In this document: positions 33,442-36,842 of the stretch, in pieces
Layout of the letters: every line of letters begins with the position of its first letter
Position numbering within the stretch: the first letter of the stretch is position 1
From: Thermococcaceae archaeon
GTDB lineage: Archaea; Methanobacteriota_B; Thermococci; Thermococcales; Thermococcaceae
Direction: 5' to 3'
Assembly (NCBI GenBank): GCA_030156945.1
Contig: JASGLT010000016.1
Location: 1 to 42,847, forward strand
Length of the DNA stretch: 42,847 nt
The notes under the pieces: model-generated
What the model saw: the letters and a program-made list of their open reading frames with translations, nothing else
Told to the model about the DNA's origin: nothing
Database searches by the model: none
Program-made: the position numbers and the translations under genes

Positions 33442-34764
33442 TCACTGCAGCATGCCCTCAAGCTTCTCAACAAACTGGATGCTCCTCTTTATGTCGGCGA
33501 AGTACTCCTTGGCCCTCTCAACGTGCTCCTTCTCGACCCTGCCGCCCCTCGCTAGGACGCTCGCCGGTGCGAGGAGCTGGACAGCGTAGCGCAGGCTGGT
33601 CTTCTCACCCAGCTCCGCGAGGTACTCTATAGCCTCTTCGCTGACTTCTATCTTCTCCTCCTTCGCCCTTATCTTGACTATCTCCCTGATCTCCTCCTTC
33701 TTGTACGGCTCGGTGTTGATGATGAGGAGCCTGTCCAGCATGTCAATCGGGATTCCGTGCGGCGCCTCGATGTCGGTGCCCCTTATCTTCGTTCTGCCCC
33801 TGTTGGTAGCTAAGATGAGTATCGGCGCGAGTTCGCTCTCCATGGCCCTGGCGAGGAAGGAGAACGCCTCGATGTCGAGCATGTGAACCTCGTCTATGAA
33901 GAGGACACCCGGGACGAGGGTCGCCCTGCCCTCCTCGATCCACTTCTTTACCGTCTCGTCAACCCTCTGCCTCACTTCATCGCTTATCTCCGCACCGGTG
34001 CTGAAGAGCAGGCCGAAGATGTTGCCGCGAGCATTGGCAACGTCGAGGTCGTGCAGGGTGACCGTGTAGGTGAACTCCTTGATCTTCAGAACTGGCCCGC
34101 TCGGGAGGTTGACCTTTCTCTTGAAGAAGAGGCCCTCTTCCTCCTTCGTGGTTCCTACCTTCGATATTCTACCGGTCTCAGCGTCTATCTGGATGACATC
34201 GCCCTCCTCGACGCCCATCTCCATGAGCTGGTAGGCTATCTCCCTTCCAGCCCTTATCGTCTTCTCGTCGTCCTTCGTGCGGAGGGTTATGATGACGCTC
34301 TCCGGAATCTCCACGTACGGGTTGAACGGGTGCCTCGTCTTCCTTACCTCGACGGACTTCACCTCGCCCTCGTAGACCTTCCTCTCCTCGCTTATCCTGA
34401 CGCCTATGGCCCGTCTCATGGCCTGCTTGAGGAACTCAGTCTTATTGACCTCTGCGGAGTAGATTTCACTGCCCGCTATCTGGACGAAGGGGACGTCCTC
34501 ACCGAGCTCCCTCGCGATGCCCATGGCTATTGCCGTCTTACCGCTTCCGGTTGGGCCGACGAGGAGAATTCCCTTTCCCGCGAGCTTGCCGCGCTTTATG
34601 AGCTCAACGGCTATTCCGGCCGCTTCCCTCGCCTTTATTTGTCCGACCATTCCGTCGGCCATGAACTTCGCCTTTCCGTTCTCGTCGAGGCCGAGGCCCC
34701 TTATGTGGGAGTGCATCCCGATCCTCTCGAAGCTTTTGGTGGCCACCTCTTCTATCACTGGCAT
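33442..34764 (-). CDS. TIP49 (RuvB-like) AAA+ ATPase
   Basis: A 440-residue archaeal TIP49, homologue of eukaryotic RuvBL1/2 (pontin/reptin). The N-terminal RIGMHSHIRGLGLDENG is the family hallmark. Walker A is GPTGSGKT (70-77), Walker B FIDEVH (289-294), sensor 1 LATNRGR, and there is an inserted OB-like domain II at about 125-235. Such rings act in chromatin remodelling, snoRNP assembly and transcription. The archaeal target is unclear, although binding to TATA-binding protein has been proposed. GGCGGAGGTGAGAAA precedes the ATG, and a TATA-like TTTTTAAG lies further upstream. Confidence 0.94.
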   Translation of the reverse strand: MPVIEEVATKSFERIGMHSHIRGLGLDENGKAKFMADGMVGQIKAREAAGIAVELIKRGKLAGKGILLVGPTGSGKTAIAMGIARELGEDVPFVQIAGSEIYSAEVNKTEFLKQAMRRAIGVRISEERKVYEGEVKSVEVRKTRHPFNPYVEIPESVIITLRTKDDEKTIRAGREIAYQLMEMGVEEGDVIQIDAETGRISKVGTTKEEEGLFFKRKVNLPSGPVLKIKEFTYTVTLHDLDVANARGNIFGLLFSTGAEISDEVRQRVDETVKKWIEEGRATLVPGVLFIDEVHMLDIEAFSFLARAMESELAPILILATNRGRTKIRGTDIEAPHGIPIDMLDRLLIINTEPYKKEEIREIVKIRAKEEKIEVSEEAIEYLAELGEKTSLRYAVQLLAPASVLARGGRVEKEHVERAKEYFADIKRSIQFVEKLEGMLQ

Positions 34765-34910
34765 TTTCTCACCTCCGCCCCCCTTTTAGAATACCAGAGG
34801 TTACTAAAAGAGATGGCTTAAAAATTTGACGGAGGCTCAGGCCGTCGATCCCGGGCATCGTTCACCCCAAAGGCCAATCTCATCATTGCCCTATCAACTC
34901 CTCTCATAAA

Positions 34911-34942
34911 CTTTTAAAACCTGGTGTCACTATCGGTGACAC
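34911..34942 (+). promoter_or_regulatory. MFS promoter with TGM-like operator
   Basis: TATA-like TTTTAAAAC at about 34912-34920 is followed by GTGTCAC-TATCG-GTGACAC at 34924-34942, a perfect 7-5-7 inverted repeat that ends one base before the ATG. It covers the predicted start of transcription, the place for a repressor. The layout TGTCAC-N5-GTGACA differs by one base per half from the Thermococcales glycolytic motif TATCAC-N5-GTGATA. Confidence 0.62.
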
Positions 34943-36109
34943 ATGAAGTTCACAAAGAACGGGGCCCTGCTCGTGGGGTATTACTTCTTTGCATGGATAG
35001 GGGGGACCATGGCATGGTTCGTTCAGCCGTTCTACTTCTCATCTCTCGGCTATACCTATGCTCAGCTTGGTGTCATTTTCTCGCTGATGTCAATATCGCA
35101 AGCGGTTGGCTTTCTTTTCTCCGGCCCGCTCGTGTTGAGGTTGGGCTATAAACGGAGCATATACATTGCAGTCGCTTTTTTTGCGATTACGAGGGTGATT
35201 CATGTTGCTATCCCGATATATTCTCTTCTCCTGCTTGCCTCAATTAGCTTTGGGATAGGGCTTGCTATTGAAAATCCCGCGTTCATGAGTCTGTTGAGCT
35301 CTGCGAGTGAAGACAGACACGGAATTTTCTCTATAAACTGGGGGGCGGCAACGATAGGAGGTGCAATTGGAACTCTCCTTGGAGGTTACATCTCCAGCAC
35401 ATTAGGATACAGATGGGCCTTGGCAATAGCTGCCATTTTTCTCCCGCTACAGGCAGCTTTCATGATGTTCGTTGAAGAAGACTCAAACGGCTTTGGGAGG
35501 AGGTTAAGCATTTCAAAATGTTCCTTAATAAGGATTATCGCTCTCTCATTCCCCATCGCAATCCTCGGGCTTGGGGCGGGCGTCATTCTCTCTTACATGG
35601 GACTGTGGTTCAAATCAAGCTACGGGATGAGCATTGCTGAAGTTGGCATTGCGTTTACACTACTTCAGTTTGTTATGGGGCTTGGATCGTTCATAGCACC
35701 CCATATAGCAAGCAGAACCGGAACCGGAAGACTCATAGCGTCATTTACGGCTCTGTCCGGGATATTTATAACCCTAATGCCCATTTCCTCATCTTTTGCA
35801 CTCGCACTCGCTCTGTACTCCCTCAGGATGTTGCTCGTGAACACTGAAGTTCCGATATGGGATTCATACTACGTCTCTCACTTCCATGAAGGGGAGAGAG
35901 CAACAGCAATAGCCCTTAAAGGCTTTGGATGGACTGTGGCCTTTGCAGCAGGGCAGTTTTTCGGCGGAATCATGTTTGAAGGATCACTCTCCCTGCCGCT
36001 CATCGTAGGCGGCATCCTCCACATGCTCAGTGCAACTTCGTTTATGACAATGGAAAGGGTTGTGAGTCGCTTCAAAGCACGTTCATGTACTTGTGAACCT
36101 GGAAGCTGA
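34943..36109 (+). CDS. Major facilitator superfamily transporter
   Basis: A 388-residue protein with about 12 hydrophobic helices and two six-helix halves. After helix 2 the typical short basic loop is GPLVLRLGYKRS. A second MFS-like loop, IASRTGTGR, follows the equivalent helix of the C-half. The C-terminus ends with a Cys/Arg-containing tail (FKARSCTCEPGS). The substrate cannot be told from sequence; the sugar-regulator-like operator hints at a sugar or related metabolite. The transcript is probably leaderless. Its last 38 bases overlap the convergent queE. Confidence 0.88.
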   Translation: MKFTKNGALLVGYYFFAWIGGTMAWFVQPFYFSSLGYTYAQLGVIFSLMSISQAVGFLFSGPLVLRLGYKRSIYIAVAFFAITRVIHVAIPIYSLLLLASISFGIGLAIENPAFMSLLSSASEDRHGIFSINWGAATIGGAIGTLLGGYISSTLGYRWALAIAAIFLPLQAAFMMFVEEDSNGFGRRLSISKCSLIRIIALSFPIAILGLGAGVILSYMGLWFKSSYGMSIAEVGIAFTLLQFVMGLGSFIAPHIASRTGTGRLIASFTALSGIFITLMPISSSFALALALYSLRMLLVNTEVPIWDSYYVSHFHEGERATAIALKGFGWTVAFAAGQFFGGIMFEGSLSLPLIVGGILHMLSATSFMTMERVVSRFKARSCTCEPGS

Positions 36110-36821
36110 GGCTGACGTTCTTCCTGCCCACTATTCTTGCCGCCTCGCGGTAGAACTCCATAAGCCTAGCCTGGAAAACCTCAATAGGCTCCCTCGGCTG
36201 GATGACGAGAGGAGCGAGGCCCTTTAGGAGCGAGGCGTACCATCGAACGTTCTCAACCCTCGTCTCGTTCGTGACGACGAGCTTTGCGTAGGTCTTCGCT
36301 CCAGCTTCCTTCAGGATTCTGATGCTCTCAACTTCTCTGAGGACGAGGCCTTTCCAGTCTTCTGTTGCATTCGCGCTCTCGTCCTTTATGTCAACGCTCG
36401 CATAGTCCGTCAGCGGCGCTATCTCTTTAATCAGCTCTGGAAGGCCGCCGTGGGTCTCGAGGAAGTTATCGAAGCCGAGCTCCTTCATCCTCTCCATCAG
36501 GGCCTTCAGTGGCTTTACTTGGAGCGTTGGCTCCCCGCCTGTGTAGCTTATCGAGTGGATATCGCCGGTATCAAGCTTCAGGAGGGCATCGACCACCTCG
36601 TCAACACTCGCTGGGTTAGGTTTATACTCAAACCTCCCCGTGAAGGGCTCGACCTCGTACCTCCAGCGGGAAACTCGGGAGGCGTCTATGTATTCTCTCG
36701 AGTCGCACCAGAGGCAGTGAAGGTCGCATCCGGCAAATCTGACGAATATCTGCCTCCTTCCGAAGGCGCTCCCCGGGACGCTTCCTCCCTCCCCCTGCCA
36801 GCTGTTGAAGACCTCTGCCAT
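36072..36821 (-). CDS. queE: 7-carboxy-7-deazaguanine synthase QueE
   Basis: A 249-residue radical SAM enzyme that converts 6-carboxy-tetrahydropterin to CDG, a step towards preQ0 and archaeosine in tRNA. It has the compact QueE plan: FNSWQGEGGSVPG near the N-terminus, the variant cluster motif C32-X3-C36-X2-C39 (CDLHCLWCD), and YTGGEPTLQ and LETHGGL further on. GAGGGTGATA favours the ATG at 36821 (MAEVF) over 36833. It lies just after a small unknown gene on the same strand. Confidence 0.94.
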   Translation of the reverse strand: MAEVFNSWQGEGGSVPGSAFGRRQIFVRFAGCDLHCLWCDSREYIDASRVSRWRYEVEPFTGRFEYKPNPASVDEVVDALLKLDTGDIHSISYTGGEPTLQVKPLKALMERMKELGFDNFLETHGGLPELIKEIAPLTDYASVDIKDESANATEDWKGLVLREVESIRILKEAGAKTYAKLVVTNETRVENVRWYASLLKGLAPLVIQPREPIEVFQARLMEFYREAARIVGRKNVSLSFQVHKYMNVL

Positions 36822-36842
36822 TATCACCCTCATCTGGACACC

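Follow-up and report, generated by a model that had tools for sequence, protein, structure and literature searches.

A 19-bp palindrome stands between the TATA box and the start codon of an MFS transporter gene in the window (the whole stretch of 42,847 nucleotides of DNA that was analyzed) and resembles the TGM, TATCAC-N5-GTGATA, the motif of the TrmBL1/Tgr regulators. Is this palindrome an operator, and which protein would read it?

The palindrome and the orthologous promoter

The palindrome is perfect, occupies positions 34924–34942 and consists of GTGTCAC (34924–34930), the spacer TATCG (34931–34935) and GTGACAC (34936–34942). The transporter ATG is at 34943 and is directly abutted by the palindrome; the earlier note had the element end one base before the ATG, which holds for the 17-bp TGM register, TGTCAC-N5-GTGACA (34925–34941, forward strand), and not for the 19-bp palindrome itself. 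As that note had also described, each half differs from TATCAC or GTGATA by a single base (A to G and T to C, at symmetric positions), and the site matches the motif at 10/12 bases. The TATA element TTTTAAAA (34912–34919), which is identical on both strands, lies within the TATA box CTTTTAAAA of the transporter gene (34911–34919, forward strand), and 5 nt separate it from the site, the palindrome beginning at 34924. The site is thus 3′ of TTTTAAAA and over the expected start site, as at TGM-repressed genes.

The transporter (388 aa, 34943–36109, forward strand) matched Pfam MFS_1 with 92 bits. Pfam Sugar_tr also passed (30.9 vs. a cut-off of 22.3), far behind MFS_1, the NCBIfam sugar porter model gave 26 bits, below its cut-off of 237.8, and the nearest solved structures were remote ones of VMAT, NorA and EfpA-type amine or drug transporters. 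Judged by these matches, the protein is not clearly a sugar porter. The left neighbor encodes a TIP49/RuvB-like AAA ATPase (33442–34764, reverse strand; Pfam TIP49, 476 bits) and the right neighbor a QueE-like radical SAM protein (36072–36833, reverse strand). The ends of the transporter and QueE-like ORFs overlap tail to tail at 36072–36109.

The closest ortholog of the transporter, 63%–65% identical, was found in another Thermococcus (genome G054, record JALSNG010000068.1, locus L035), flanked as in the window by TIP49 and QueE-like genes. Its promoter (L035/L006) contains an exact TGM (12/12), TATCAC-CGTTG-GTGATA, in the same register and again 5 nt 3′ of the TATA box. Between the two promoters, 10/12 informative bases of the site and 8/9 bases of the TATA box were kept, along with 2/5 bases of the spacer, 0/5 of the linker from TATA box to operator and 5/15 of the next 15 nt upstream; because site and TATA box are kept and linker and flank are not, the pattern is that of a conserved operator. 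The distance from site to TATA box is equal in the two promoters, whereas the distance from site to ATG differs by 2 nt (in L035, the ATG overlaps the TGM), which points to a promoter element more than to a translation signal. This measure of conservation comes from one close syntenic ortholog.

No TGM was seen upstream of the distant MFS homologs (49%–50% identical in two genomes from a different genus of this family, ~40%–44% in many others), for which 27 loci (L007–L034 less L030, which has a shorter flank) were inspected by eye, together with 20 further stretches. The idea that TGMs control the MFS family as a whole was therefore rejected. The promoters of distant homologs (L010–L034 and L090–L109), from several genera, often contain a TTTCGATAAnCTTATAAACGC-like element at the TATA box; we know of no regulator of this element. 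The exact motif and identical TATA spacing in the syntenic ortholog bear out the relation to the TrmBL1/Tgr motif and the repressor-type placement proposed in the earlier note, and the conservation in orthologous promoters by which that note would have its proposal judged was found in the one close ortholog and not in homologs of ≤50% identity.

Chance level and TGM sites in the same and related genomes

At 0–2 mismatches, the palindrome is unique in its own genome. Perfect palindromes with 7-bp arms and a 5-bp spacer numbered 4 in the window vs. ~3.1 (0–7) in 30 Markov-1 random windows, and TGM matches with ≤2 mismatches numbered 55 in the whole genome vs. 53 for the reversed control. Because such palindromes are about as frequent in random windows, and because the two-mismatch count is close to that of the control, neither the bare palindrome nor TGM likeness by itself is strong evidence, and significance based on either count alone was dropped. 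Using a small weight matrix built from 13 other sites of the own genome, the transporter site scored 14.7 bits, compared with 16.99–20.8 bits for 11/13 of the other sites. Its P value was ~5e-6 per position, with ~11 equally good positions expected in 2.08 Mb, and no other position in the window came within 2 bits of it. What raises the site well beyond chance is the orthologous promoter with its exact TGM in matching register. Counts of start-proximal matches are inflated, since GGTGA in the right half doubles as a Shine-Dalgarno sequence; GGTGA is present within 18 nt upstream of 7/24 window genes.

The genome-wide motif search that the earlier note had called for gave, besides the two-mismatch count at control level, sites at glycolytic and gluconeogenic promoters. 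The own genome contains three exact TGMs and few one-mismatch sites. Sites with an exact core or with more mismatches lie directly 5′ of the genes for two ADP-PFK/GK-family kinases, iPGM, a DeoC-family aldolase, enolase and TPI, and further sites lie before GPI and upstream of FBPase (gene families confirmed by family search). The core TCAC-N5-GTGA was found at 29 sites, vs. 14 for the reversed control, and a start codon lies within 15 nt at 12/29 core sites and at 0/14 control sites. Left out of the count of 12 are L173 and L176, which lie in called ORFs and have a start codon no more than 15 nt away; the aldolase site (L182), flagged as falling in an upstream-extended version of its ORF, is kept. 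Part of the excess may arise because GGTGA also reads as a ribosome site. That this species has generally lost TGM specificity was rejected, as it retains the three exact TGMs and its iPGM site resembles those of relatives.

Tolerance of the changed bases was assessed at 30 orthologous iPGM promoters. There, the outer bases on the left are free to vary (position 2 is A in 20, C in 8, T in 1 and G in 1), and the right half hardly varies, with T at position 16 in 30/30 and never C. The right half GTGACA was absent from all 30, so that weaker binding or another reader is possible at the transporter promoter. The sole support for a changed right half is one own-genome site whose right half is read as GTGACG. 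TGTCAC-N5-GTGATA, which carries the left-half change, was found in 5/94 genomes, at 4/5 just 5′ of a start codon or 3′ of a TATA-like stretch: two apparently occupy a promoter at which the own genome has an exact TGM, two are at another promoter just before an ATG and one is between divergent genes. G at position 2 of one half is thus tolerated. At a promoter near a MobB-like gene, the own genome shows an exact TGM, and two other genomes show TGTCAC-N5-GTGATA (L085, L087, L041). The doubly changed TGTCAC-N5-GTGACA was found in 3/94 genomes, and the other two were rejected as support, since their sites are inside a 605-aa coding sequence.

The regulator and the competing explanations

The sole full-length TrmB-type regulator of the own genome is P0002, a Tgr ortholog of 341 aa (C47:4425–5447). 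It has the two domains taken to define this type, an N-terminal TrmB HTH (PF01978, 84.9 bits) and a C-terminal sugar-binding Regulator_TrmB domain (PF11495, 189.8 bits), and it matched TrmB (PDB 3qph) with E = 2.4e-33. Although the earlier note had suggested a related TrmB-family protein as the controller, no additional sugar-domain paralog was needed or found. Stretches matching the TrmB HTH model numbered 28 in the own genome; a second sugar-domain paralog was rejected, as full-length Tgr had one match at E ≤1e-15.

The recognition helix of P0002 (residues 43–56) is the same as in 68 orthologs, with V/I variation at residue 48 only. In the wing, P0002 has I64 and N65, whereas 68/68 orthologs combine M64 with H, Q or P at 65; the tally takes in 68 of the 69 other sequences fetched, the one left out (L135) separately showing M64 and Q65, and about a dozen further orthologs found in the search are omitted from it. 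P0002 is 73% identical to the Tgr of genome G024, yet TIP49 and iPGM of the same two genomes are 99% and 96% identical; the nearest Tgr sequences are those of G054 (81%) and G067 (80%). In a tree of 29 Tgr sequences (29/30 used, L135 missing), P0002 forms the longest branch. Its locus has a PMM, UPF0146-like and POP5-like neighborhood, which is common to G054 and G067, and is without the amylopullulanase-type and glycogen-synthase-type neighbors present beside most other copies (30 examined). The Tgr neighbors were named by eye, with no family search, and so were the msrA-like, FAH-like, TatD-like and AsnA-like genes and the 470-aa and 108-aa ORFs.

The explanation that we regard as likely is that the palindrome is a variant TGM read by the single TrmBL1/Tgr-type regulator of the organism, which would repress the transporter until sugar is present. 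In sugar-free cells, Tgr bound to the site would cover the start of transcription, expected ~25 nt 3′ of the TATA box, and block RNA polymerase; a maltooligosaccharide ligand would release it, and the transporter would be made. According to published accounts, maltose or maltotriose releases TrmBL1 and Tgr (PMC4158304), and TrmBL1 of P. furiosus binds 37 regions, is on TGMs in pyruvate-grown and not in starch-grown cells, and has its TGM mostly after the TATA box, a position that suggests repression at most promoters (PMC4706686). As both halves carry one outer substitution, Tgr probably binds the site more weakly than a consensus TGM, and with weaker binding the transporter gene may be derepressed earlier than consensus-TGM genes.

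A different DNA-binding protein could instead read the symmetrically changed operator, an ancestral TGM having been re-targeted so that Tgr no longer reads it. The same symmetric change is present in both halves, which now form 7-bp arms, and random decay rarely gives such an outcome; the 28 HTH matches offer other potential readers, and for a TGM-like operator upstream of the T. kodakarensis RuBisCO gene tk2290 the authors favor a repressor other than Tgr (PMC12628685). We nevertheless consider re-targeting improbable, since the core TCAC-N5-GTGA is intact and so is the TATA spacing, other TGM promoters also have half-sites with G at position 2, and one protein of the own genome, bearing the sugar-binding domain, matches full-length Tgr at the above threshold (5/28 HTH matches were read). 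Slightly less credible is a decaying or chance site, in which the transporter has lost Tgr control here or a Shine-Dalgarno GGTGA has a fortuitous upstream match. Chance does not plausibly account for an exact 12-base TGM at the matching position of the syntenic ortholog, and decay would more often leave an asymmetric site, although the score of the site is under that of most own-genome sites, equally good positions are expected elsewhere in the genome, and 7-bp palindromes with 5-bp spacing are common.

Very unlikely, finally, is an RNA element, the palindrome acting as an mRNA hairpin by which both the start codon and the ribosome site GGTGA are masked. A 21-nt stretch does fold at −10.8 kcal/mol at 37°C (z −4.6), as do 41 nt surrounding the orthologous site (z −1.8). 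However, the genus Thermococcus grows near 80–90°C, which would weaken a hairpin of 7–8 bp, and because the TATA element would place the start near 34939, inside the palindrome, the left arm would be untranscribed. In L035, moreover, the ATG overlaps the TGM, which leaves GGTGA too near the start codon to work as a ribosome site.

A probably shared TATA box and known systems

A candidate C/D-box sRNA (sR44-like) lies divergent to the transporter gene at 34835–34890 on the reverse strand, and its DNA is conserved in 88/94 family genomes, most matches stopping at query base 69, which is 34890. The candidate scored 20.5 bits with Rfam sR44, under the gathering score of 45, and its C box was placed by eye at 34886–34880. 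A TATA-like element is present at about the same offset from the sRNA in 29/30 loci examined; in G024, G069 and others, the transporter gene is absent and the QueE-like gene comes directly after the sRNA promoter. TTTTAAAA probably serves the transporter gene and, in the other direction, the RNA gene. Because the TATA-like element is found at nearly all of these loci, several of them without the transporter gene, the TATA box is probably older than that gene at the locus and serves the RNA gene. The transporter gene, whose third-position G+C is lower (0.52 vs. 0.62–0.80 for five neighbors), probably joined the locus later. Among the 30 sRNA loci, the operator was found only in the two genomes that bear the transporter gene; under a shared TATA box, it would stand upstream of the RNA promoter.

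It is also conceivable, and as doubtful as a decaying site, that regulator and operator diverged together, given the long branch of this Tgr, its I64 and N65 and the matching outer-base change, and that the C/D-box RNA is sugar-controlled as well. If this were true, an operator against the shared TATA box would bring a conserved RNA-modification guide under sugar control. Two side findings, the diverged Tgr and the apparent sharing of one promoter with a conserved RNA gene, are more unusual but unproved. Under the preferred reading, a variant TGM read by Tgr, a probable transporter target is added to the archaeal sugar regulon, a small step, since P. furiosus already offers an MFS gene as a TrmBL1 target. 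The TATCAC and TGTCAC versions in syntenic promoters are a natural pair for the study of outer-base tolerance in Tgr.

In the literature searched, as far as the texts available extend, no description of this transporter gene or its operator was found. The locus resembles the system of the TGM and TrmBL1 (P. furiosus PF0124) or Tgr (T. kodakarensis TK1769) in the core TCAC-N5-GTGA, the 5-bp spacer, the position 3′ of the TATA box over the start site, the exact TGM in the orthologous promoter and the Tgr ortholog in the genome. It differs in that the outer base is changed in both halves (TGTCAC and GTGACA), the P. furiosus ChIP motif being described with A alone at position 2 (PMC4706686), and in that its putative target is a transporter without sugar-gene neighbors. 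The TrmBL1 ChIP targets reported in that study include PF1350, which, as described there, is likewise an MFS gene with a TGM after its promoter elements. The tk2290 operator, as presented in its report, is also a variant TGM 5′ of a start codon, but its TGM likeness (ATTTAC-N5-GTGAAA) is far weaker than that of the window site.
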